Origin: a virus
Strand: one strand, 5' to 3'
Length of the DNA: 26,583 nt
Virus record (IMG/VR): IMGVR_UViG_3300021962_000549
Coordinates: 1-26,583 of that record
Positions 7,833 through 23,713 of this stretch are shown here, piece after piece. The notes under the pieces are model-generated. The model saw nothing but the letters and a program-made list of their open reading frames with translations, had not been told where the DNA came from and ran no database searches. The translations under genes and the position numbers were made by a program. Each line of letters opens with the position of its first letter. Positions within the stretch are counted from its first letter, which is position 1.

Positions 7833-8783
7833 ATGGCAACTAGAACACCAGTCTACTTTGATGGAACAGACATAGTAGATATGACTTCTGATCAATTAGA
7901 GAAAGTCTACAACTATGCAAAATATCTTTATTCTTTAGATCCTTCTGTTACTCTTTCTTATGTGGCTAGTGGTGGAAATATTGGTTCGATTACTGATAAC
8001 AGAAAAATTTCTACTACAACATATACCAACATAACCACCTATCCTACAAGCACTTCGTCGTCTGCATATAGTAGTATTAACAATCCTTTTGGTGCAACAG
8101 TTTCTTTTTCTCGTATAAACCAAAACAGAACAGCACTTTCTTTAGCTGTTGATTCAAATAATATTAAATTTCCTATGTATCGTGATGCTAGTAACGACCT
8201 TGTGGCGATGACTGATTCTGATTTTATTGACACATTTTGCGTACCTGCTTTACGAACATATAGAACTACTGATACGACAGAAGATAGTTTTGGTGGTATA
8301 TACCACATTCAAACCGCAACTTCTTTTACAGGAAGTACAATTGTTGATGCGAATTCAATATTCATTGATACTAGAAATATTGGTACTGCTTCTGCTACCG
8401 GCCAAACACAAGACCAACCTACCACTATTCAAGAATATTATCTGTATTTGAAAAATTTTGATTCAACTAACCAAAAAGACTTTGACCTTCCATCTTTTGT
8501 TTATGATTCAACCGGCGATATTTACACAGATGATAGTGCAGGATTTAATACAATACTATCCCAAATGGTTAGATGGACTGCTTCACATGGAGTTGGCGGA
8601 AAAATTACTTATCAATATAGTTCCGGTAATGCTCAGAGAGGCTCATCAATGACTGATACATATTTGAATAGTACCAGCACTGGCATCTTATTCGGTGGCT
8701 CTGATGATTATAGAGCACAGACACATCCAGCTGGAACTGCAGTAACAAATCAAACTCATTATTTAGGTATTACAGTTACTTAA
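7833..8783 (+). CDS. Virion structural protein
   Basis: The 316-residue product starts MATRTPVYFDGTDIVDMTS and continues with YLYSLDPSVTLSYVASGGNIGSITDNR, a form I associate with structural proteins encoded just before gene 13 in marine T4-like phages. The rest is Ser/Thr-rich with mixed strands and no enzyme motif, signal peptide or membrane segment. AGGAG lies 8-12 bases before the ATG. It is the last gene of the fibre/baseplate block; a late promoter and a 36-base gap separate it from gene 13. The name is from recognition of the family, not a defined T4 homologue. Confidence 0.7.
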   Translation: MATRTPVYFDGTDIVDMTSDQLEKVYNYAKYLYSLDPSVTLSYVASGGNIGSITDNRKISTTTYTNITTYPTSTSSSAYSSINNPFGATVSFSRINQNRTALSLAVDSNNIKFPMYRDASNDLVAMTDSDFIDTFCVPALRTYRTTDTTEDSFGGIYHIQTATSFTGSTIVDANSIFIDTRNIGTASATGQTQDQPTTIQEYYLYLKNFDSTNQKDFDLPSFVYDSTGDIYTDDSAGFNTILSQMVRWTASHGVGGKITYQYSSGNAQRGSSMTDTYLNSTSTGILFGGSDDYRAQTHPAGTAVTNQTHYLGITVT

Positions 8784-8786
8784 ACA

Positions 8787-8794
8787 TATAAATA
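8787..8794 (+). promoter_or_regulatory. T4-type late promoter for gene 13
   Basis: An exact TATAAATA lies in the intergenic gap 8784-8819. If spaced as in T4 (octamer at about -13 to -6), transcription would start near 8800, leaving a 20-base leader containing TTGGAG, a good ribosome site for the ATG at 8820. The flanks AACA and GTAA are shared with the element before gene 18. Confidence 0.7.
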
Positions 8795-8819
8795 GTAAGG
8801 TAATATTGGAGTAATATTT

Positions 8820-9575
8820 ATGGCTAATCCAACAACAAGAGATACATTAATAGACTATTGCAAAAGGAGACTTGGCGATCCTGTAATTGAAATTAATATT
8901 GATGAAGACCAAATAGAAGATAGGGTCGATGAAGCATTACAAATATTTCAAGAATATCATTCCGAAGCAACATATAGAACATATGTTAGTTATCAAGTAA
9001 CTGCAGATGATGTTACTAATAAGTATGTATCTGTTGATTCAAGTATTTTATTTATTTCAAGAATGTTTGCGATTGATGCAACATTCGGTTCAAGTATAAA
9101 CTTCTTTGATATTAAATATCAAATGATGTTAAATGACATAGCCGATATGCATAATTACATCGGCGACTTGGCATACTATGAACAAATGCAACAATATCTA
9201 TCGTTATTAGATATGAAATTAAATGGCACACCTCAAGTTGAATATGCAAGAAAACAAGATAGACTTTATATATTTGGTGAATTTGCTGATGGTGATTTAA
9301 AAGCTGGTGACTATATTGTATACGAAGCATATAAAATTATAGATCCGGCTTCTTTTAGTAAAGTTTGGAACGATATGTGGTTGAAAGAATATACAACTGC
9401 ATTATTCAAACAACAATGGGGGCAAAATTTAATTAAGTTCGAAGGAATGACACTTCCAGGTGGAGTAACACTAAATGGGAGACAACTATATGATGATGCA
9501 AGTACAGATTTAGAGAGATTAAGAGAACGATTACGACTTGACCATGAAGAACCAATAGACTTTTTTGTAGGATAG
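8820..9575 (+). CDS. 13: Neck protein gp13 (head completion)
   Basis: Gp13 and gp14 form the neck that seals the filled T4 head and connects it to the tail. The start MANPTTRDTLIDYCKRRLGDPVIEINIDEDQIEDRVDEALQ is the conserved N-terminal region of marine T4-like gp13, with a helical acidic segment (~25-50) followed by QEYHSEATYRTYV. At 251 residues it is shorter than T4 gp13 (about 309). A Trp-rich region near residues 180-200 (VWNDMWLKEY) is also typical. It leads a tight run 13-14-15-16-17; only 3 bases separate it from the next start. Expression should be late, from the TATAAATA 33 bases upstream. Confidence 0.9.
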   Translation: MANPTTRDTLIDYCKRRLGDPVIEINIDEDQIEDRVDEALQIFQEYHSEATYRTYVSYQVTADDVTNKYVSVDSSILFISRMFAIDATFGSSINFFDIKYQMMLNDIADMHNYIGDLAYYEQMQQYLSLLDMKLNGTPQVEYARKQDRLYIFGEFADGDLKAGDYIVYEAYKIIDPASFSKVWNDMWLKEYTTALFKQQWGQNLIKFEGMTLPGGVTLNGRQLYDDASTDLERLRERLRLDHEEPIDFFVG

Positions 9576-9578
9576 AGC

Positions 9579-10478
9579 ATGGCTAGAAACATGTACTTCA
9601 CAAGTGCTGTGAGGTCTGAACAGAATTTATATGAAGATATAGTCATCGAATCATTAAAAATTTATGGTCAAGATGTTTATTATCTTCCAAGAGATATAGT
9701 AAATGAAGATACTATACTAGGTGACGATGTTGTCTCATCGTTTAATTCCGCACATGTTATAGAAATGTACATCGAAAATACTGAAGGATTCGATGGAGGA
9801 GGAGATCTATTTACAAGATTTGGTGTAGAGATTCGTGATGAAGCAACATTTGTAGTATCAAGAAGAAGATGGCAACAAACTGTTAAGAAGTGGGATACAG
9901 AATTAGTATCAGTAAGACCTCGAGAGGGAGATCTAATTTATTTACCGATGACTAATAAGATATTCCAAATATCTCATGTAGAACACGAACAACCATTTTA
10001 TCAATTACAAAACTTACCTGTATTTAAACTTCGTGCTAATTTATTCGAATACAATGATGAAGATCTTGACACTGGTATTGAAATTATCGACCAAATTGAA
10101 AAAGATTACGCATACTCTTATATACTTACACTAGATAGAAACAGTGATACTATTGTTCCTGGAAATACTGTAAGTATGTTATTAGATAGTGCTACTAACT
10201 TAATCATGACTGGTGAGATAGAAAAATGGTCAGACTCTGATAATAAACTACATGTTGTACATGCGGGCGCGAACGATGGTAAATATCATACGTTCTTACC
10301 AACTTATAATGTAAGTATTACTGGATCATTAAGAGCTGATTCTGATTTTACTGTAAGTGTTGTTGCTGAAGAAAATCAAATATCCTCTAATGAACAAAAT
10401 GATTTCTTTAGTACTGGTTCTGTAAACTTCTTAGACTTCAGTGAAAATAATCCATTCGGTGATGCGGAGAATCAATAA
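9579..10478 (+). CDS. 14: Neck protein gp14
   Basis: This is the second neck protein, needed with gp13 for head completion. Its N-terminus (MARNMYFTSAVRSEQNLYEDIVIESLKIYGQDVYYLPR) carries the conserved motif around IYGxDVYYxPR. A second recognisable block is DLFTRFGVEIRDEATFVVSRRRWQ (~85-108), followed by RPREGDLIYLP. The 299 residues are somewhat longer than T4 gp14 (256). AGGAT lies before the ATG. The stop overlaps the gene 15 start as TAATG, so translational coupling is likely. Identification rests on these motifs plus its place between 13 and 15. Confidence 0.9.
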   Translation: MARNMYFTSAVRSEQNLYEDIVIESLKIYGQDVYYLPRDIVNEDTILGDDVVSSFNSAHVIEMYIENTEGFDGGGDLFTRFGVEIRDEATFVVSRRRWQQTVKKWDTELVSVRPREGDLIYLPMTNKIFQISHVEHEQPFYQLQNLPVFKLRANLFEYNDEDLDTGIEIIDQIEKDYAYSYILTLDRNSDTIVPGNTVSMLLDSATNLIMTGEIEKWSDSDNKLHVVHAGANDGKYHTFLPTYNVSITGSLRADSDFTVSVVAEENQISSNEQNDFFSTGSVNFLDFSENNPFGDAENQ

Positions 10479-11269: not shown

Positions 11270-11616
11270 GTGATGATAAGAATATAAACGATGATTTTGA
11301 ATACTCCCGAGCAACATATTACGAACTTCTAGAAAAAGGCAAAGAGTCTTTAATGGATATGATGGAAGTTGCTAGATCCTCAGAACACCCACGAGCATAC
11401 GAAGTATTGTCTAATCTTATTAAGAATATGGCAGATGTCAATGACAAACTGATGGAACTGAATAAGAAGAAAAAAGATTTAGATAAAAAAGAAGAACAAA
11501 AACAGGTAGGTAACACCACTAATAATTTATTTGTTGGTACTACAGCTGACTTACAAAAACTATTAAGAGATGATGAGCAAGTGATTGATGTTACTAACGA
11601 GAACAATGCAGAATGA
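11266..11616 (+). CDS. 16: Small terminase subunit gp16
   Basis: The small terminase subunit recognises or regulates DNA for packaging and stimulates the large subunit. This 116-residue protein is mostly helical and charged. Residues ~15-45 (YYELLEKGKESLMDMMEVARSSEHPRAYEVLSNLI) match the typical N-terminal part, and a Lys/Glu-rich coiled-coil stretch follows (~50-80). The end contains NNLFVGTTADLQKLL, which I recognise from other gp16 proteins. It is shorter than T4 gp16 (164). The start overlaps the gene 15 stop (ATGA) and the stop overlaps the start of gene 17, supporting coordinate expression of both subunits. Confidence 0.88.
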   Translation: MSDDKNINDDFEYSRATYYELLEKGKESLMDMMEVARSSEHPRAYEVLSNLIKNMADVNDKLMELNKKKKDLDKKEEQKQVGNTTNNLFVGTTADLQKLLRDDEQVIDVTNENNAE

Positions 11617-13216
11617 ATATTATCTTGGTAATCCACTCGTAAAAAGAGATGGTGTTGTCCAAGACTGGACTCAAGAGCAGTTAAAAGAATATGCCAAATG
11701 TATGAAGGATCCTTCGTACTTTACCGAAAAATATATTAAAATTATTTCACTTGATAAAGGACTAGTTCCTTTTGAATTGTATCCATATCAAAGGAAGATG
11801 TTTAAACAGTTTCGAGAAGAACGATTTAATATCGTATTAGCATGTAGACAGTCAGGGAAGTCTATTTCTGCTTGTGCTTTTCTATTATGGTTTGCTTTAT
11901 TTAACCCAGAAAAAACCATCGCTATAATGGCAAATAAAGGAGCTACGGCGAGGGAGATGTTAGGTCGTATAACTTTAATGCTTGAAAATTTACCATTCTT
12001 TTTACAACCTGGATGTAAAGCTCTAAACAAAGGCTCAATTGAGTTTTCAAACAATTCAAGAATAGTTGCGGCTGCTACATCAGGAAGTTCTATTCGTGGT
12101 ATGTCTGTTAACTTACTATATCTTGACGAGTTCGCATTCGTAGAACACGCCGCTGAGTTTTATACATCAACTTATCCTGTGGTATCAGCTGGAACAAATA
12201 CTAAGATTATTGTTACATCAACAGCGAATGGTGTTGGTAATATATTTTATAATATATGGCAAGGAGCTGAACAAGGTGTTAATGAATTTAAATCATTTAG
12301 AGTTGATTGGTGGGATGTTCCAGGAAGAGATGATAATTGGAAAGTATCAACCATAGCCAATACTTCTCAATTACAGTTCGACCAAGAGTTCGGTAATACG
12401 TTTTTCGGTACAGGTGATACATTAATTAATGCTGAAACATTAATGAAATTAAAGGCAAAAAATCCTATTGAAGCACTAGAAGGAGGAAAACTTCTAGTCT
12501 ACGAAAAGACTGTAAAAGACCATGCGTACATCATGACTGTTGACGTAGCAAAAGGTAGAGGACAGGATTATTCTACTTTTACAATAATCGATATATCTAC
12601 TTCGCCGTTTAGGCAAGTGGCTGTGTATCGCAACAATGTTATTTCTCCGATACTCTACCCTAACATTATATATAAGTTTGCGAAAGTCTATAATAATGCT
12701 TATGTTGTTATAGAAGCAAACGACCAAGGCAGTATCGTATGTAATGGTTTATATCACGAGTTTGAATACGAAAACATGTATCTAGAATCTGCAATCAAAG
12801 CAGATAAGATTGGTGTTGAAATGACTAGGAAAACTAAAAGAATTGGTTGTAGTTCATTTAAAGATTTAATAGAAAATGACAAACTTGACATAGTAGACCA
12901 AGAAACTATTATGGAAATATCTACATTTGAAGCAAGGGGACAATCTTACGAAGCAACTCCAGGAAACCATGATGATTTAGTTATGAATCTTGTGATGTTT
13001 GGATATTTCGTATATACCGAAGCATTTCAGGATATATCTAATATTAATTTAAAAGAAATGTTATTTGATGATAGAATGAAACAAATAGATGATGATGTCG
13101 TTCCATTTGGTTTTCACGATGATGGTGTTGATTTTGTTGAAGAACAAGATAGACGTGATGAGTGGTATCAAACATACAACCCAGAATGGGGTGACAAATA
13201 TAGGGATGAATTTTGA
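11606..13216 (+). CDS. 17: Large terminase subunit gp17
   Basis: Gp17 is the ATP-driven packaging motor and headful nuclease. With the ATG at 11606 the protein has 536 residues and starts MQNEYYLGNP, the usual start in marine relatives; a TTG at 11585 and an ATG at 11588 would add 6-7 residues. The Walker A is CRQSGKS (80-86), Walker B LLYLDE (170-175), and the coupling motif TSTANG (204-209). The RNase H-fold nuclease shows D313 (VDVAKG), E370 (VIEAND) and D456/D457 (HDDL), matching the acidic triad of T4 gp17. It is shorter than T4 (610). The start lies inside gene 16 and the stop overlaps the next gene by 4 bases (TTGA). Confidence 0.95.
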   Translation: MQNEYYLGNPLVKRDGVVQDWTQEQLKEYAKCMKDPSYFTEKYIKIISLDKGLVPFELYPYQRKMFKQFREERFNIVLACRQSGKSISACAFLLWFALFNPEKTIAIMANKGATAREMLGRITLMLENLPFFLQPGCKALNKGSIEFSNNSRIVAAATSGSSIRGMSVNLLYLDEFAFVEHAAEFYTSTYPVVSAGTNTKIIVTSTANGVGNIFYNIWQGAEQGVNEFKSFRVDWWDVPGRDDNWKVSTIANTSQLQFDQEFGNTFFGTGDTLINAETLMKLKAKNPIEALEGGKLLVYEKTVKDHAYIMTVDVAKGRGQDYSTFTIIDISTSPFRQVAVYRNNVISPILYPNIIYKFAKVYNNAYVVIEANDQGSIVCNGLYHEFEYENMYLESAIKADKIGVEMTRKTKRIGCSSFKDLIENDKLDIVDQETIMEISTFEARGQSYEATPGNHDDLVMNLVMFGYFVYTEAFQDISNINLKEMLFDDRMKQIDDDVVPFGFHDDGVDFVEEQDRRDEWYQTYNPEWGDKYRDEF

Positions 13217-14010
13217 CTTTAGAACATGGACTTTTTACTCCTTCTAGGATTCCAGAGCTATTAGGATTAGTTTCAATAGTCATAAGTCCAACCGACTTAT
13301 GTAATCGTACCTGTGAGTTTTGCCCCCACTCAATGGGATTTCCAAATAAAAAGAATTATATGAAAGTACATTTAGCTGAGATACTGGCTAAAGAATTGGC
13401 ATACTATAAATGGGATGGTGTTATCAGTGTATCAGGATATGGCGAACCATTATTACATCCAAATATTGGTAGTATTATAAAACAATTTACATCAAAAGGT
13501 ATATCTACAAGACTGATTACAAGTGGTGATAGAATATTAAATGGCAAATTTACGTCAGAAGAAATAGATAGTTGGGGTCTGTTGTCTATAAAGATTGATT
13601 GTTATGATGGTCAAAATGATGTGGATAAGATGAATGAAATATTAAAAGATTTAAAAACATATAAAAGAATTACAACTGGACCAACAGATTTATCTAATCG
13701 TGCTGGTTATTTGTGGTTTGCGAATAATATAAAGAAACCTTGTTATCAACCAGCGCTCAAATCTATTGTCGATTGGGATGGTAATGTATATATTTGTTGT
13801 GAAGATTGGTCTAAAGAAATATCATTCGGAAGTATATATGAAAAAACATTTTCTTCGATATGGCTATCAGAAGATCTAAATTATGTAAGGCAAAATCTGC
13901 TAAATGGTATAAGAACGTTTCCAACTTGTCAAAATTGTAACCTTTTACCAGAAAATTCACAAAATGAGCGAGAAGCAGATGAAATTTGGCAAAGTTATAA
14001 ATATATGTAA
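13213..14010 (+). CDS. Radical SAM/SPASM-domain enzyme
   Basis: The protein is 265 residues if it starts at the TTG at 13213. There is no in-frame ATG until after the cluster motif, and AGGGA sits 6 bases before the TTG, so a TTG start is likely. C30-X3-C34-X2-C37 is the classical radical SAM iron-sulfur motif, and GYGEP (75-79) is the SAM-binding GGEP-type motif. The C-terminal part is SPASM-like: C177, then VDWDGNVYICC (C195, C196), a G-S-I-Y-E turn with IW, and C239-X2-C242. Such enzymes use a 5'-deoxyadenosyl radical for peptide, sugar or cofactor chemistry; the substrate here is unknown and no precursor peptide gene is obvious nearby. It overlaps the terminase stop by four bases, an unusual place for an enzyme within the 17-18 gene pair. 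Confidence 0.88.
   Translation: MTLEHGLFTPSRIPELLGLVSIVISPTDLCNRTCEFCPHSMGFPNKKNYMKVHLAEILAKELAYYKWDGVISVSGYGEPLLHPNIGSIIKQFTSKGISTRLITSGDRILNGKFTSEEIDSWGLLSIKIDCYDGQNDVDKMNEILKDLKTYKRITTGPTDLSNRAGYLWFANNIKKPCYQPALKSIVDWDGNVYICCEDWSKEISFGSIYEKTFSSIWLSEDLNYVRQNLLNGIRTFPTCQNCNLLPENSQNEREADEIWQSYKYM
13996..14003 (+). promoter_or_regulatory. Possible late promoter inside the radical SAM gene end
   Basis: An exact TATAAATA overlaps the last codons (SYKYM) of the radical SAM gene, 74 bases before the gene 18 ATG. It could add a late start for gene 18. Chance copies of an AT-only octamer are expected in a genome this AT-rich, so support comes only from position. Confidence 0.35.
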
Positions 14011-14037
14011 ATTGAATATAACCGCATTATGAGAACA

Positions 14038-14045
14038 TATAATTA
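14038..14045 (+). promoter_or_regulatory. Late promoter-like element before gene 18
   Basis: TATAATTA differs from TATAAATA at one base. Its context (aacatataattagtaac, 14034-14050) matches the gene 13 promoter region at 15 of 17 positions, and its distance to the ATG (32 bases) is almost the same (33). A start near 14051 would give a ~19-base leader with AAGGA before the ATG. Confidence 0.55.
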
Positions 14046-14069
14046 GTAACCGAAAATAAGGAAAACACA

Positions 14070-15812
14070 ATGGCACTTTCAACTCCTTCCGAATCTCCTG
14101 CGGTTGTAGTCAAGGAAATTGACCTCACTAGTTCTGTACCTGGAGTTCAGAGTACAACTGGTGCGTTCGTAGGAAACTTTAGATGGGGTCCAGTAGGGCA
14201 AAGAGTGCAAGTATCTACCGAAACAGAACTCGTTGATACATTTGCCAATCCAGACTCCTATAATACAATAGATTTCCATACGGCTGCTTATTATCTGAAA
14301 TATGGTAATAATCTTCAAGTTGTTCGTGAAGCAACTTCCGATGCAGTTAATGCATGGGGATCTATTTTTAACACTGCTTCTGATTCTGCAGATGGCGGTG
14401 ACACGATTAATAATAAGGTTGCATTTGATGCAAACCTATCATCACTAGGAACTAAAGGATATACTTTTATTGGTAGATATCCTGGGGAACTAGGGAACAG
14501 TTTAAAAGTAAGTATATGTCCTGGAGCAGACTCTGCAGGAGCTCTCTTTAATGGTTGGGCATATAAATCTTCATTCGATGCATTTCCAAGCACTTCAACT
14601 TATGCATCAAATAGAAGTTCAACCAATGATGAATTGCATATCATAGTCGTTGACGAAGATGGTAGATTTACAGGAACTCCAGGTGAAGTTCTTGAAAGAT
14701 TCCCATTTGTATCACAGGCTGCTGATGCTAAGGCTGCTGATGGAACATCAATCTTTGCGAAAGATGTAATCAACCAAACATCCGAATATGTTTATCTCTT
14801 AAATTTAGTAGATTCAACTCATGCGGCATTTGGTCAAAGCTCATCAGCTGGTAACACGTATACAGGGACAGCAACAACTGATATCGTAATTGCTGGTGGT
14901 GTTAATTCAGAAACATTAACAGCTACTGAAATACTAGCAGGACACGATCTGTTTGAAGATAAAGATATCGTAGAAGTTGATTTCTTAATTGCTCCAGATG
15001 CAACAAGTTCAGCTCACACTACTATCGTGAACGATCTTGTGGCTAATGCGGCTGCTAGGAAAGACTGTATCGCAGTTGCTTCACCAAAAAGAAGTGATAT
15101 TGTTGGCCAAACAAATGCAGCAACTATTACAACTAATATTGAAACAACAGCAAATGCGTTAACGAATTCATCATACTTGGTACTTGATGGTGGCTACCTA
15201 AAAGTATATGACAAGTATAATGACCAATACATTCAGATCCCTGCATCATCATCAACAGCTGGTATAATGGCGGCCACAGATAGAGATAGAGCTCCTTGGT
15301 TCAGTCCTGCTGGACAAAGAAGAGGTACTTATCTTGGCGTAACAGCGATTGATTATATACCGACTAAAGCACAAAGAGATACTTTGTATAAAGCTGGTGT
15401 AAACCCTGTTGCCAATATACCTGGACAAGGAATTGTATTGTTTGGTGATAAAACTAAACTTGCAAGACCTTCTGCGTTTGACAGGATTAATGTTAGAAGA
15501 CTATTCTTAGTACTTGAAAGAGCAATTTCAAGAGCTGCAGAAAGTGTTCTATTTGAATTCAATGACGAATTTACAAGAGCTGAGTTCGTAAACATTGTTG
15601 AACCATTACTTCGTGAAGTGCAAGGTAGAAGAGGAATTACTGACTTTAGAGTTGTTTGTGACGAATCAAACAATACAGCAGCAGTAATTGATAGAAATGA
15701 ATTTATCGCATCAATCTTCATCAAACCTGCTCGTTCAATTAACTATGTAACACTTAACTTTGTTGCAGTTAGAACTGGCGTGGACTTTGAAGAAGTTGTA
15801 GGCACAGTGTAA
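14070..15812 (+). CDS. 18: Tail sheath protein gp18
   Basis: Gp18 polymerises around the tail tube and contracts during infection. The N-terminus (ALSTPSESPAVVVKEIDLTSSVPGVQSTTGAFVGNFRWGPVGQ) contains the conserved sheath signature with the P-G-V turn and G..G.F..GP. The C-terminal domain has the usual sheath features: RNGVDRINVRRLFLVLERAIS-like sequence (here FDRINVRRLFLVLERAIS), a FEFNDEFTRAEF block, and an end at GVDFEEVVGTV. It is 580 residues against 659 in T4; the variable surface domain between about 150 and 300 is where the shortening would be expected. AAGGA precedes the ATG. It is followed after 10 bases by the tube gene. Confidence 0.95.
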   Translation: MALSTPSESPAVVVKEIDLTSSVPGVQSTTGAFVGNFRWGPVGQRVQVSTETELVDTFANPDSYNTIDFHTAAYYLKYGNNLQVVREATSDAVNAWGSIFNTASDSADGGDTINNKVAFDANLSSLGTKGYTFIGRYPGELGNSLKVSICPGADSAGALFNGWAYKSSFDAFPSTSTYASNRSSTNDELHIIVVDEDGRFTGTPGEVLERFPFVSQAADAKAADGTSIFAKDVINQTSEYVYLLNLVDSTHAAFGQSSSAGNTYTGTATTDIVIAGGVNSETLTATEILAGHDLFEDKDIVEVDFLIAPDATSSAHTTIVNDLVANAAARKDCIAVASPKRSDIVGQTNAATITTNIETTANALTNSSYLVLDGGYLKVYDKYNDQYIQIPASSSTAGIMAATDRDRAPWFSPAGQRRGTYLGVTAIDYIPTKAQRDTLYKAGVNPVANIPGQGIVLFGDKTKLARPSAFDRINVRRLFLVLERAISRAAESVLFEFNDEFTRAEFVNIVEPLLREVQGRRGITDFRVVCDESNNTAAVIDRNEFIASIFIKPARSINYVTLNFVAVRTGVDFEEVVGTV

Positions 15813-15822
15813 GGAGGTAATC

Positions 15823-16362
15823 ATGGCTATACTAGGAGTAGACGATTTTAAAGCGAAACTTCGTGGCGGTGGTGCTCGTCCAAATTATTTCCAGGTAACA
15901 CTTAATTATCCTGGATATGCGAATGGTGATCCAGAGCTGACCTCATTTTTAGTGTCCGCAGCACAGCTACCGGGTTCAACATTTGGAGCCATTGATGTTA
16001 ATTATAGAGGAAGAGTATTAAAAATGGCTGGTGACAGAACATTTGAAACATGGACTGTTACAATCATTAACGATACTGACTTCGCTATAAGAAACGCAAT
16101 GGAAAGATGGTCAAATGGTATTAATAACTTTAAAACTAATACTGGTTTGAATTCACCAATCCAATACGAAGCAGACTTAAAAGTCGATCAATTAGACAGG
16201 AATGGCGATTCTCTAAAAACATATACGTTTAGAGGAGCATACCCTGTAAATATCGGATCGATTGAATTAAGTTACGATAACACTAATGCTATCGAAAACT
16301 TTACAGTCGAGTTCGCTTATCAATATTGGGAAGCATTGGCACCAGTGCCGACCACTTCTTAA
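15823..16362 (+). CDS. 19: Tail tube protein gp19
   Basis: Gp19 forms the inner tube of the contractile tail, through which DNA passes. The 179-residue product is close to the T4 length (163). It has GGGARPNYFQVTLNYP near the N-terminus, then an FLVSAAQLPGSTFGAIDVNYRGRVLKMAGDRTFETWTVTIIND segment that is the core tube signature, then AMERWSNGIN. The ribosome site is unusually strong: AAGGAGGTAA directly follows the gene 18 stop and sits 4-10 bases before the ATG, consistent with high expression. A GC-rich stem-loop follows the gene. Confidence 0.95.
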   Translation: MAILGVDDFKAKLRGGGARPNYFQVTLNYPGYANGDPELTSFLVSAAQLPGSTFGAIDVNYRGRVLKMAGDRTFETWTVTIINDTDFAIRNAMERWSNGINNFKTNTGLNSPIQYEADLKVDQLDRNGDSLKTYTFRGAYPVNIGSIELSYDNTNAIENFTVEFAYQYWEALAPVPTTS

Positions 16363-16384
16363 TATTGTACTAAATATTACTAAA

Positions 16385-16402
16385 GGGGGTCGAAAGACCC
16401 CC
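16385..16402 (+). other. GC-rich stem-loop with GAAA tetraloop
   Basis: Seven perfect base pairs (GGGGGTC/GACCCCC) close a GAAA loop in the gap between genes 19 and 20. No T run follows on the plus strand (AAAGTAAC) and only three Ts on the minus strand, so it is a poor intrinsic terminator. It may be an RNA end, a stabiliser of upstream sheath/tube message or a pause site. Confidence 0.75.
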
Positions 16403-16423
16403 AAAGTAACATAGGAATTACAC

Positions 16424-17980
16424 ATGGCAGACGAAAGAGGTTTTACATTATTTGGATTTGAGATAAAGAGACAATCCTCAAAAGACGAAACTATGAAGAA
16501 TCGTCCATCTATCGTTCCCCCAAGGGATGAAGATGGTGCGGGCTATATTACAGCATCAGGATCTCATTATGGTCAATACGTTGATATAGAAGGCAACGAT
16601 AAAGTAAAAGATAATAGAGATCTTATTATGAAATATCGTGGTGTTTCTATGCATCCCGAAGTTGATGCGGCTATTGAAGATATTATAGATGCGGCGATAA
16701 CATTCGGTGAGACGAAACAATCTATTGATATTATATTAGATAATGTCGATACTACCGACCAAATTAAAAAATTGGTAAAAGAAGAATTCGATAGAATCTA
16801 TACTATGTTAAACTTTGATGAAAATGGTCATGACATTTTCAGAAGATTCTATGTAGACGGAAGAATGTATCATCACTTAGTTGTAGATGAAAAGAATTTA
16901 AAATCTGGTATTCAAGAAATACGACCGATAGATTCAGCAAAAATACGAAAAGTAAAAGAAATTAAAACTAAGAATGACGAGGCTACAGGAGCAAAAGTTG
17001 TAGTCAATGTAAATGAATACTATGTTTATCAAGAAAAGCCTGGAGAACAAAGAACAGGAGTAAGATTAACAGAGGATTCAGTCAACTATGTAACTTCGGG
17101 TCTATTAGACGAACAACGTAAAAAAGTTATATCATATCTTCATAAAGCATTAAAACCAATCAATCAGTTAAGAATGATGGAAGATGCACTTGTTATTTAC
17201 AGACTTGCAAGAGCACCAGAAAGAAGAATATTCTATATTGATGTTGGTAACTTACCGAAAGGTAAAGCTGAAGAATATATGAAACAGATTATGTCACGTT
17301 ATCGTAACAAGTTAGTATACGATGCTAATACAGGACAGATTCGTGATGATAGAAAACATATGTCAATGTTGGAAGATTTCTGGCTACCAAGACGAGAAGG
17401 TGGTCGAGGAACACAAATCGAAACACTTCCTGGAGGAGATAATCTCGGTCAAATAGATGATATTGTTTATTTCCAAAGAAGATTATATCGTTCGCTTAAT
17501 GTTCCGATTAGTAGATTAGAAACAGATAATGCGTTTAGTCTTGGAAGAACAACGGAAATTAATAGAGATGAATTAAAATTCCAAAAATTTATTGACAGAC
17601 TAAGAGCAAGATTCTCACATCTATTTAAAGATATCCTTAAAAAACAATTGATGTTAAAAGGTATTATCACTGAAGAAGATTGGGAAAATTGGAGAAGTGA
17701 TATAGTAGTTGATTTCTTAAAAGATAACAACTTCTACGAACTTCGCGAAGCAGAACTTATAAGAGAAAGAATTAATACATTAGATATTTTACAAAATTAT
17801 ATTGGTTCTTTTTATTCTAAAGAATGGGTAATGAAAAATGTTCTTATGTTCTCAGAAGAAGATATTTCAACTATGAAAGACCAAATAGATGCTGAGAGTG
17901 ATACTGGGGATGATGGTTCCGATGACTTTGGTAACAATCCAGGTGACGATCCAGCAATAACTAAAAATTATGATTTTTAA
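16424..17980 (+). CDS. 20: Portal vertex protein gp20
   Basis: Gp20 forms the dodecameric portal where head assembly starts and DNA enters. At 518 residues it is nearly the T4 length (524). Recognisable features are LIMKYRGVSMHPEVDAAIEDIIDAAI (~65-92), ALKPINQLRMMEDALVIYRLARAPERRIFYIDVGNLPK (~243-280), the RNKLVYDANTG block, and the FWLPRREGGRGTQIETLPGG segment (~315-335). The acidic C-terminus is probably disordered. AGGA precedes the ATG. The gene lies between the tube and the small prohead core gene, as in other T4-like phages. Confidence 0.95.
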   Translation: MADERGFTLFGFEIKRQSSKDETMKNRPSIVPPRDEDGAGYITASGSHYGQYVDIEGNDKVKDNRDLIMKYRGVSMHPEVDAAIEDIIDAAITFGETKQSIDIILDNVDTTDQIKKLVKEEFDRIYTMLNFDENGHDIFRRFYVDGRMYHHLVVDEKNLKSGIQEIRPIDSAKIRKVKEIKTKNDEATGAKVVVNVNEYYVYQEKPGEQRTGVRLTEDSVNYVTSGLLDEQRKKVISYLHKALKPINQLRMMEDALVIYRLARAPERRIFYIDVGNLPKGKAEEYMKQIMSRYRNKLVYDANTGQIRDDRKHMSMLEDFWLPRREGGRGTQIETLPGGDNLGQIDDIVYFQRRLYRSLNVPISRLETDNAFSLGRTTEINRDELKFQKFIDRLRARFSHLFKDILKKQLMLKGIITEEDWENWRSDIVVDFLKDNNFYELREAELIRERINTLDILQNYIGSFYSKEWVMKNVLMFSEEDISTMKDQIDAESDTGDDGSDDFGNNPGDDPAITKNYDF

Positions 17981-17992
17981 AGGAGATAAATT

Positions 17993-18253
17993 ATGGCTGA
18001 TAATGCGATAACAAATGATTTGATTAATAGTATTTTAGCAGGAAGTTTTAATAATGCTGAAAAAATGCTACATCAAAATTTAGCACAAAAACAAAATGAT
18101 TTGCTCGACCAAGAAAAGATTAAAATGGCTGGGCAAATGTATAATAACGTTCAACCTGAAGAAGATGAAGAGGTCGAATTAACTGATGATGATATAGAAA
18201 ATGCTATTGATGATGAAGCAGAAGAACTTGGAAATGACGAGGAACAAGAGTAA
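17993..18253 (+). CDS. 67: Prohead core protein gp67-like
   Basis: This is an 86-residue, strongly acidic protein. The N-terminal half is helical (NDLINSILAGSFNNAEKMLHQNLAQKQNDLLDQEKIKMAG) and the C-terminal half is a Glu/Asp run. In T4, gp67 (80 residues) is an internal core protein encoded directly after gene 20 and cleaved by gp21 into internal peptide. Size, composition and place all agree. AAAGGAG lies before the ATG. Its last 20 bases are overlapped by the KdsB-like gene in another frame. Confidence 0.8.
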   Translation: MADNAITNDLINSILAGSFNNAEKMLHQNLAQKQNDLLDQEKIKMAGQMYNNVQPEEDEEVELTDDDIENAIDDEAEELGNDEEQE

Positions 18254-18929
18254 TACTTGTATATTAATCCCATCTAGACTTAAAAGCACAAGATTTCCAA
18301 ATAAACCTTTAATAGATTTAAATGGTAAATCTATGATTCGTACTGTATTCGACAGGTGCGAAAGTTTTGGTTACGACACTATTGTTGTGACTGATTCAGA
18401 AAAAATAGCAGATGAAATCCCTTTAGAAAATATAGTTATGACTGACCATCATTATGATAATGGTACAGATAGACTTATGCGAAGAGTAGTTGATGCTGTA
18501 TGGTGCGACTATGATAATTATATTAATGTTCAAGGAGATAATCCTGATGTTACTTTGGATATTATTGAAGCCATTGATAATAAATTAGATAATGCTACTG
18601 TTGTAAATGCTTACACTATAATGACTACTGGTGAATGTAAGGATAATAATTCTGTTAAATGTATAGTTTCTGATGATAATATAAATTGGTATACAAGAGC
18701 AGAGGTGCAATACGGATTTAAAGCACTAGGGTTTCATGGTTATAAAAAAGGAACATCAGAACTTTGGTCAAAATTTAAAAGGCACCAAGAAGAAAAAATA
18801 GAAGATGTAGAACAACTTCGTTGGATACAAAATGGTATAAACCTTAAAGGAGTGTTTGTAGATTTTTATGGAGTCGAAATAAACGAACCAAAAGATTTAA
18901 AAAAGTGGAAATTTAAGCAAAATCTTTAA
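18234..18929 (+). CDS. KdsB-like CMP-sugar synthetase (nucleotidyltransferase)
   Basis: KdsB couples CTP to Kdo to give CMP-Kdo for lipopolysaccharide core synthesis. The family pattern is clear: IPSRLKSTRFPNKPLIDLNGKSMI (residues ~12-35), VVTDS (51-55), YDNGTDRL (74-81), NVQGD (98-102), VSDD (145-148), ALGFHGYKKG (164-173) and VEQLRWIQNG (192-201). Length is 231 residues against ~248 in E. coli. The usual QGDEP reads QGDNP, the usual VDTPEDL reads INEPKDL, and the loop between TRA and the HGY strand is shortened, so substrate or activity may differ. The ATG at 18234 has only a weak ribosome site and lies inside gene 67; upstream ATGs at 18201-18213 are possible. Its position between prohead genes is unusual. 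Confidence 0.8.
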   Translation: MTRNKSNTCILIPSRLKSTRFPNKPLIDLNGKSMIRTVFDRCESFGYDTIVVTDSEKIADEIPLENIVMTDHHYDNGTDRLMRRVVDAVWCDYDNYINVQGDNPDVTLDIIEAIDNKLDNATVVNAYTIMTTGECKDNNSVKCIVSDDNINWYTRAEVQYGFKALGFHGYKKGTSELWSKFKRHQEEKIEDVEQLRWIQNGINLKGVFVDFYGVEINEPKDLKKWKFKQNL

Positions 18930-22436: not shown

Positions 22437-23033
22437 ATGGCTACACTAACTAAAAATATAAACTATTTACAACCAACTTCTTTTAAGTTGCTTATAGATA
22501 GAAAGCATTATCCTAATTTAGAATTTTTCGCACAGTCAGTTTCTCATCCCTCAATGACGATGACTAGTGTCGATTTACCATTCAGAAAAACTTCTGTCGC
22601 TTTTCCTGGAGATACTTTAGATTTTGGCGAATTAACTGCCAATATAATTCTTGATGAGGATATGAATAGTTATACAGAAATGTTTAACTGGATGCGTAGA
22701 AATTTGGATAATAATAGTTCGAATCCATTAAATAGAACTAGTAGGGATGCTTCTTCTTATGCAGATGTAACACTTTCTATACTATCAAGCCATAATAATC
22801 AAACGAGACAAGTTAGATACATAGATTGCGTTCCTACAGCATTGGGTGCCATAGAATTCCAATCAACTTCTTCTGGCACTGAATATATAACATTTCAAGT
22901 ATCTTTTAGTTATAGTTATTTTGAATTGTTTGGTGTAAATTCAACAACAGGTAATATAAATGTATCACTTGAGAAACGAACACTACAAGACGGAAGTACA
23001 ATATTAACACCGAGAAATTATGATTCAGCATGA
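22437..23033 (+). CDS. Tail tube-like / tail completion protein (gene 3 position)
   Basis: The 198-residue product begins MATLTKNINYLQPTSFKLLIDRKHYPNLEFFAQSVSHPSM. The pattern of FKLLIDR, a FFAQSVSHP turn, PFRKTSVAFPGDTLDFGELTANIILDED and EMFNWMRRN resembles the tail tube fold and aligns by eye with gp19 in this window. In marine T4-like phages the gene between 23 and uvsY is, as I recall, annotated as gp3, the tail completion and sheath-stabiliser protein (T4 gp3 has 176 residues). I support a tube-like tail protein but not a firm gp3 assignment. There is no ribosome site before the ATG. The stop overlaps the next start as ATGA. Confidence 0.75.
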   Translation: MATLTKNINYLQPTSFKLLIDRKHYPNLEFFAQSVSHPSMTMTSVDLPFRKTSVAFPGDTLDFGELTANIILDEDMNSYTEMFNWMRRNLDNNSSNPLNRTSRDASSYADVTLSILSSHNNQTRQVRYIDCVPTALGAIEFQSTSSGTEYITFQVSFSYSYFELFGVNSTTGNINVSLEKRTLQDGSTILTPRNYDSA

Positions 23034-23713
23034 AACTAGCGATTTGGGGATCAACACAAACTGGTAAAGCCAGTTTGGTTTTTAACTTTTTAAATTATTA
23101 TAACTTAGAAAAAGTACGATATAAAGGTGAGTTTGAATTTGAACCACCGAAAACAGATTCGTATGTAATCAAAGTCCTTTACGATTATAGAATAACCAAT
23201 AAAATACTTAACGAATATCTATTGGATAGAATAGAAGAAGATTGTGTTCATTTATTCATGTATAGGCAAAACTTGTTATCGCAATATCTTGCTTTACATC
23301 ATAACGAAGCAATTGATAATGGAACCGACCCTGATGTTCTAGATGTACATGACTGTAAAGCATTTATAGAAAGTCAAAAAAATAATACAGCAAGAATATA
23401 TGATACTATAAAAGATTTAAATGTAGTCGCTGGTTCTTATGAAGAGATATTCCACTCTGATAAAGTTTTTGATATATTTAACAAACTTAATGTAGATATA
23501 AAAGAAGAAGATGTTCCGCATCTTATAGGTCCAATCAAGTGGGAAGTACAAGGAAAAAATAAACATACACAAGCAAGATTTACAGTAAATAAAGGGATAG
23601 AACACTTTACTTACAAAGAAAATTATAGTATAATAAAGAATATGTTCTGCGAAGAATATATGTATATAGATAATGATACAAGGGAAGTAAAATTTTTACA
23701 CCATGAAACTTGA
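23030..23713 (+). CDS. P-loop protein, possible sulfotransferase-like
   Basis: The 227-residue protein starts MKLAIWGSTQTGKAS, a beta strand followed by a P-loop-like G-S-T-Q-T-G-K-A-S (7-15). A later stretch, HLFMYRQNLLSQYLALHHNEA (~74-94), recalls the YR-N-LL-SQ helix of sulfotransferase-fold proteins, and VVAGSYEEIF recalls their YE motif. The sulfotransferase reaction would move sulfate from PAPS to a sugar or other acceptor. The match is by eye and distant; a kinase or other P-loop enzyme remains possible. The start overlaps the previous stop (ATGA) and the stop overlaps uvsY by 11 bases, so it is fully integrated in the operon. Confidence 0.5.
   Translation: MKLAIWGSTQTGKASLVFNFLNYYNLEKVRYKGEFEFEPPKTDSYVIKVLYDYRITNKILNEYLLDRIEEDCVHLFMYRQNLLSQYLALHHNEAIDNGTDPDVLDVHDCKAFIESQKNNTARIYDTIKDLNVVAGSYEEIFHSDKVFDIFNKLNVDIKEEDVPHLIGPIKWEVQGKNKHTQARFTVNKGIEHFTYKENYSIIKNMFCEEYMYIDNDTREVKFLHHET

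Follow-up and report, generated by a model that had tools for sequence, protein, structure and literature searches.

A BtrN-type radical SAM gene between terminase and tail sheath of a marine T4-like phage, with a possible role in amino-sugar synthesis for the host envelope

The virus record IMGVR_UViG_3300021962_000549 of IMG/VR, analysed over its full 26,583 nucleotides (positions 1 to 26,583; hereafter the window), belongs to a marine T4-like phage and carries a gene for a radical S-adenosylmethionine (SAM) protein between the genes for the terminase large subunit (gp17) and the tail sheath (gp18). Sequence comparison and structural modelling indicate a protein of the BtrN type, with a likeness to BtrN that extends over the full length and exceeds that to other solved families. 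Relatives in SAR11 and other marine bacteria are encoded in gene clusters for surface polysaccharides. The evidence tips slightly towards a sugar-alcohol dehydrogenase that would serve a phage pathway for an aminated envelope sugar, possibly one derived from 3-deoxy-D-manno-octulosonic acid (Kdo). Beyond the placing of a BtrN-type protein in a surface-glycan setting, we infer the reaction, the substrate, the order of the steps and the benefit to the phage.

Domain architecture and similarity to BtrN

The gene and its motifs lie in the window as follows.
13213–14010, plus strand: BtrN-type (Twitch) radical SAM enzyme, 265 aa, with matches to PF04055, PF13186 and BtrN and a median dN/dS of 0.17
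13300–13323, plus strand: radical SAM cluster motif C30-N-R-T-C34-E-F-C37, aligned with BtrN C16/C20/C23
13435–13449, plus strand: GYGEP (residues 75–79), a GGEP-type SAM-binding motif
13690–13701, plus strand: LSNR motif, which includes R163
13741–13938, plus strand: predicted Twitch (half-SPASM) domain with the likely ligands C177, C195, C239 and C242

An earlier reading made from the letters alone (the sequence-only reading) had described an open reading frame (ORF) at 13213–14010 with a C30-X3-C34-X2-C37 motif, a GYGEP motif and cysteines at 177, 195, 196, 239 and 242. All of these are present, GYGEP at residues 75–79, and the 265-aa frame on the plus strand is real and open. Its start codon is TTG, which is accepted because ATG replaces it at the same codon in the divergent members L014 and L015 and the residues downstream align; from this start C30, C34 and C37 are intact, and the disruption of the cluster motif that the same reading had named as grounds for refutation is not seen. 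The profiles that it had proposed for a check both match above the gathering score, PF04055 (Radical_SAM) at 1.3e-9 and PF13186 (SPASM) at 2.7e-11. The CX3CX2C motif, the PF04055 score above cut-off and the match in fold together place the protein in the radical SAM superfamily.

The nearest solved protein found by phmmer is BtrN (1e-16, full length). A profile of 41 relatives matches BtrN at 8e-44, again over the full length, and the next solved protein follows at 1.7e-9 with its core only. An AlphaFold model from 41 diverse rows reached a predicted local distance difference test (pLDDT) score of 85.7 and a predicted template modelling (pTM) score of 0.87, as against a pLDDT of just 57 from 13 near relatives. 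Foldseek places the better model closest to BtrN (E 1.3e-17, template modelling (TM) score 0.74/0.80), with the next protein at 7.5e-8. BtrN is the 2-deoxy-scyllo-inosamine dehydrogenase of the butirosin pathway (PDB 4M7S, 4M7T), and has the same size, Twitch architecture and overall fold as the phage protein, together with the same cluster motif, four auxiliary-cluster cysteines and LSNR arginine. C177, C195, C239 and C242 align with BtrN C169, C187, C232 and C235, and R163 aligns with Arg152 (a position counted on the BtrN alignment), which we take to be the proposed catalytic base of BtrN. BtrN oxidises a cyclitol alcohol to the ketone, and the electron is proposed to pass to its auxiliary cluster, which is fully ligated (PMC9012708). 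The two proteins differ in setting, an antibiotic cluster as opposed to a phage structural-gene slot, and are about 25% identical.

Conservation was assessed in an alignment of the 41 phage and cellular relatives, in which C30, N31, R32, C34, F36, C37, P38, G75, E78, T103, G105, Y131, R163, C177, D187, G190, C195, W217, C239 and C242 are invariant. C196, which had been counted among the SPASM ligands, varies in distant kin, and because it is not conserved the likely ligands of the auxiliary cluster are C177, C195, C239 and C242. The seven-cysteine SPASM motif is CX9-15GX4C-gap-CX2CX5CX3C-gap-C (PMC6231123). Half of it is found in the phage protein, as C-X12-G-X4-C and C-X2-C, and there are no cysteines beyond C242. 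Because the later cysteines of the motif are absent, the C-terminal domain is assigned as a Twitch domain with one auxiliary cluster and not as a full SPASM domain. A full SPASM enzyme with two auxiliary clusters was rejected, the second set of cysteines being missing, so that, of the claimed complete two-cluster SPASM enzyme, the radical SAM identity and the presence of a second cluster stand and the full SPASM domain falls.

The gene is present in 16 IMG/VR loci, each of which adjoins gp17 and/or gp18 of the same phage type. Among 13 members with identities down to 65%, the median ratio of nonsynonymous to synonymous substitution rates (dN/dS) is 0.17 and the radical SAM and ligand residues are all invariant, which points to purifying selection.

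Cellular relatives

No relatives came up when bacterial genomes were searched with a phage-only alignment. With a mixed alignment, a scan of 84,980 species genomes recovered a clear group (E 1e-25 to 1e-40), nearly all of it marine, from Pelagibacteraceae (SAR11), Rhodospirillaceae, Nitrospina, Nitrosomonadaceae, Magnetococcales and Litoricola, whose members are 28–35% identical to the phage protein. Genes at the cellular loci include an extracellular polysaccharide (EPS)-associated MarR regulator (TIGR04176, 3e-38) and, above cut-off, PseB and PseC; an ABC transporter, NeuB- and NeuA-like genes and glycosyltransferases were recognised by eye or by weaker matches. A class-III pyridoxal phosphate (PLP) aminotransferase lies at most seven genes away in 18 of the 31 cellular loci, mostly at a distance of one or two genes. 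The tree groups all phage sequences together beside the cellular ones. An origin of the phage gene in a SAR11 host was considered; because the phage sequences join on long branches, the tree gives no firm support to any one donor or to a single origin among phages.

Aminotransferase and Kdo-pathway genes in related phages

A candidate partner gene lies further downstream in the window.
18201–18929, plus strand: KdsB-like (cytidine monophosphate (CMP)-Kdo synthetase family) cytidylyltransferase, between a gp67-like gene and gp21 (PF02348, 7.6e-24)

All 13 PDB matches of its product are KdsB, and it is proposed as a pathway partner of the radical SAM enzyme. The gp67–gp21 interval holds a KdsB-like gene in the window, L004 and L015. 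In the sister phage L002, whose radical SAM protein is 88% identical to that of the window, it holds a homologue of a cyanophage aminotransferase (33%, 2e-46), and in L006 both genes are there and overlap. One or both partners occupy this interval in five of the eight distinct carriers in which it is visible. Among related contigs that lack the radical SAM gene, no partner scores above cut-off in any of the 28, of which 22 include gp21, and Fisher's test against those 22 gives p 4e-4 with kinship ignored. The spread of kdsB was gauged by profile searches, and a scan for its relatives matched the same phage only. A search of the carriers for an iron–sulfur assembly scaffold (PF01521) found none.

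Among 50,697 phage records, Synechococcus phage S-SCSM2R alone reaches a coverage of at least 80% for the radical SAM query, and the same holds for the aminotransferase query. Its gene SSCSM2R_39 is the closest relative among isolated phages (27% identity), directly preceded by the aminotransferase gene. The genome also encodes KdsA and KdsB, as does that of the metagenomic cyanophage G015. It differs from the window in that the gene lies near tail genes, outside the gp17–gp18 slot, and belongs to a separate, distant clade. In the cyanophage relatives generally, the aminotransferase gene is directly upstream with overlapping frames in every locus with upstream sequence. Genes of the oxidase, transaminase and KdsB types are all present in L006 and S-SCSM2R, and two of the three in the window. 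The pairing of these radical SAM genes with PLP aminotransferases resembles that of BtrN, which acts together with the aminotransferase BtrS, and differs from it in the class of PLP enzyme, HisC-like in the phages and class III in cells. KdsA and KdsB are known viral auxiliary metabolic genes (PMC10653327).

Three further observations concern these gene families and this interval. The gp67–gp21 insert of L011 (6061–6669) is of another kind, about 200 aa long, oxygenase-like by eye and with no Pfam match. In Campylobacter phage vB_CjeM_WX1 (L020, 1237–7453), a BtrN-like gene stands amid several radical SAM genes, an amidinotransferase and an aminotransferase. Cyanophages L217 and L218 have KdsA followed by an amidinotransferase distantly related to that of vB_CjeM_WX1.

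A proposed pathway and its alternatives

As a sugar-alcohol dehydrogenase, the enzyme would work as follows. A [4Fe-4S] cluster on C30, C34 and C37 would cleave SAM, and the resulting 5′-deoxyadenosyl radical would abstract a hydrogen from a hydroxyl-bearing carbon of a sugar or polyol. The hydroxyl proton would be taken by a base, probably R163 in the place of BtrN Arg152, and the second electron would pass to an auxiliary [4Fe-4S] cluster fully ligated by C177, C195, C239 and C242, to leave a ketone or an aldehyde. A PLP aminotransferase, encoded by the phage in several sister phages and otherwise supplied by the host, could convert the carbonyl into an amine, and the KdsB-like enzyme could activate the product with CMP for transfer to a glycan of the host outer membrane. 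The likely benefit would be an altered host surface from which competing phages are excluded. Surface modification and the exclusion of other phages are proposed for such marine phage genes in PMC7029224 and PMC5332604.

The most specific version of this scheme would be an amino-Kdo route like that to 8-amino-3,8-dideoxy-D-manno-octulosonic acid (Kdo8N) in Shewanella, with the radical enzyme replacing KdnB. In the Kdo8N pathway, KdnA carries out the transamination and KdsB the activation. The oxidation of Kdo at C8 is ascribed to KdnB in PMC5125639, citing Gattis et al. (2013). The proposed logic of hydroxyl oxidation, transamination and CMP activation is alike in the two cases and a KdsB-type partner is present, whereas KdnB is an iron-containing alcohol dehydrogenase and not a radical SAM enzyme, and the production of amino-Kdo by the phage is a proposal. 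We put forward tentatively, as a possible refinement, a radical SAM route to aminated Kdo or a close ulosonic acid in which the BtrN-type enzyme would take the place of KdnB and the HisC-like aminotransferase that of KdnA. Activation of the product would fall to a KdsB-type enzyme, and the phage would in this way rebuild the inner core of the host lipopolysaccharide (LPS) with a different sugar. The parts of such a route are spread over two cargo slots in an otherwise rigid block of virion genes.

Several points weigh against the dehydrogenase pathway. An identity of about 25% to BtrN does not fix the reaction, and similarity is a poor predictor of function among SPASM/Twitch enzymes (PMC6231123). 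The KdsB-like protein of the window scores below the NCBIfam KdsB cut-off, and the aspartate of its VDTPEDL motif is replaced by asparagine, as in its sisters; the cyanophage KdsB proteins keep the aspartate. Neither partner is found in the gp67–gp21 slot in three of the eight carriers, the association carries no correction for phylogeny, and no Pfam class I/II or III aminotransferase was found in the window's phage, as covered by 43 kb of a larger genome.

A surface-glycan sugar enzyme that catalyses another radical reaction, such as epimerisation, deoxygenation, deamination or a rearrangement, as other Twitch/SPASM sugar enzymes do, is rather unlikely. The lack of a visible aminotransferase in the window's phage and the polysaccharide context of the cellular relatives would suit it, and the related folds include the sugar-acting radical enzymes DesII and BlsE. 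BtrN is nevertheless far closer by profile and fold than any enzyme other than a dehydrogenase, the four cysteines for an auxiliary cluster are as in BtrN, and the recurrent pairing with an aminotransferase fits the formation of a carbonyl. A sactipeptide-, anSME- or RiPP-type (ribosomally synthesised and post-translationally modified peptide) enzyme that modifies a peptide or a protein of the virion, perhaps in the tail sheath or fibres, is quite unlikely. The gene does stand amid virion genes, with further radical SAM genes near the tail-fibre genes, and SuiB and EpeE are among the fold matches. These peptide maturases match much more weakly, the closest kin are in polysaccharide clusters, and a single auxiliary cluster is predicted. 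The radical SAM core starts near residue 22 by Pfam, so a protein of 265 aa leaves no space for an N-terminal peptide-recognition domain. No unassigned small ORF that could encode a precursor lies between gp17 and gp18, which bears out the sequence-only reading on this point, and a RiPP or sactipeptide maturase was rejected for lack of such a precursor.

A nucleotide- or DNA-related substrate, as for a viperin-like synthase of 3′-deoxy-3′,4′-didehydronucleoside triphosphates (ddhNTPs), a QueE-like deazaguanine enzyme or a MoaA-like cofactor enzyme, is highly improbable. The matches that suggest it, to prokaryotic viperin (1e-10 in PADLOC) and to MoaA and QueE (NCBIfam), are weak, confined to the core domain and all far under the curated cut-offs. 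A viperin-type defence enzyme was rejected at 30.4 bits against a cut-off of 180, with the core alone matching in this search and in PADLOC, and an identity as QueE or MoaA was rejected because their NCBIfam matches, too, cover the core alone at scores far under the cut-offs. To our knowledge, viperin and QueE lack a Twitch domain, which counts against this kind of substrate, and nucleotide-modification genes are not adjacent. The auxiliary cluster of MoaA has three cysteines rather than four (PMC9012708). That the gene is a passenger with no present function is scarcely credible; it occupies a variable cargo slot and most relatives are without it, but the low dN/dS and the invariance of its catalytic and ligand residues speak for selection and so disfavour this explanation. 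Of the substrates that the sequence-only reading had offered, a host glycan is favoured by the closeness to BtrN, by the surface-polysaccharide setting of the cellular kin and by the KdsB-like and aminotransferase genes of sister phages; a virion protein or a nucleotide-derived cofactor as the target has no support.

The gp17–gp18 slot and the gp18 late promoter

The surroundings of the gene in the window are as follows.
11585–13216, plus strand: gp17, terminase large subunit (PHROG 2e-59), with the true start probably at ATG 11609
13213–13216, plus strand: TTGA, the 4 bp shared by the start of the radical SAM gene and the stop of gp17, seen in the sequence
13996–14003, plus strand: TATAAATA, predicted T4-type late-promoter element of gp18, in the 3′ end of the inserted gene
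14070–15812, plus strand: gp18, tail sheath (PHROG 7e-122)

The PHROG matches confirm the flanks, and the four-base overlap with the terminase stop described earlier is also found in most sister loci, so the gene may be translationally coupled to gp17. A survey that started from gp17 yielded 73 readable gp17–gp18 junctions, of which 61 have at most 201 bp between the two matches, five have the radical SAM gene and seven have another insert. The junction is a recurrent cargo slot (12 of 73 filled). The gene does lie between gp17 and gp18, as had been said, but their description as a conserved pair has to give way to that of such a slot.

The late-promoter-like element that had been assigned to the end of the gene itself is there, but it belongs to gp18. 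TATAAATA lies 64–105 bp upstream of gp18 in all 73 junctions, whether filled or empty, and within the 3′ end of the open frame in all 13 carriers. A promoter of the inserted gene was ruled out, as junctions with and without an insert have the element before gp18. It is an element of the gp18 promoter that lies by coincidence within the terminal coding sequence of the insert. This assignment is made because its place upstream of gp18 is conserved and not from its number, which in the AT-rich window is at chance level (five observed, 4.25 expected).

Two other occupants of the slot were seen. In L089–L094, from another branch of these phages, it holds a RimK-type ATP-grasp domain fused to a Zn_protease-type domain, and in L055 (4331–5134) a 268-aa protein with no Pfam match above cut-off.
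L089 1923–3392; L091–L094 5548–7026, gp17–gp18 slot: RimK-type ATP-grasp/Zn_protease-type fusion

Other genes of the phage and of related contigs

The contig IMGVR_UViG_3300021959_000092 overlaps the window at 99.9–100% identity and extends upstream, where an island amid tail-fibre genes holds several glycosyltransferase-like genes (by eye, with little Pfam support), three further radical SAM genes, a stand-alone SPASM ORF and an oxygenase-like gene. Islands of this kind are known from pelagimyophages, which have radical SAM cassettes and LPS genes where host recognition is encoded (PMC7029224), and as many as 12 radical SAM genes have been described in the genome of one marine phage of the T4-like type (PMC5332604). 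These phages resemble the present one as marine T4-like phages with radical SAM and glycan genes. The portions of the two reports that deal with the host-recognition cluster or with gene counts name no BtrN-type enzyme in the gp17–gp18 interval and draw no link from it to an aminotransferase and KdsB.

In L101 (9654–11764, minus strand), a radical SAM core and a SPASM domain are encoded as two overlapping ORFs of 223 and 100 aa, adjoining an N-terminal-twitch radical SAM protein (NF033640, 2.5e-73), and a similar two-ORF arrangement is found in L104 (12688–13609). L101 also has four paralogue-like proteins of about 300 aa amid tail-fibre genes (12826–16853), one of them weakly GT9-like. Between a second tail-tube-like gene and uvsY, the window encodes a 227-aa protein (23030–23713) with no Pfam match, P-loop- or sulfotransferase-like by eye and 33% identical to a protein in L214. 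In the sister phage L104, three tandem genes that look sulfotransferase-like by eye (8383–10382) lie between recombination and clamp genes; Pfam gave no support for the one that was checked.

Implications

Marine T4-like phages often carry radical SAM genes, most of which have no assigned role. The ties of this gene to BtrN, to its candidate partners and to a polysaccharide setting lift it out of anonymity and narrow its possible substrates to a few that can be tested. The gp17–gp18 and gp67–gp21 intervals serve as cargo slots in the virion-gene block, and the first sits just upstream of a conserved late promoter. If the proposed pathway is true, these phages would encode several successive enzymes for making a host-envelope amino sugar, along an unusual radical-enzyme route.

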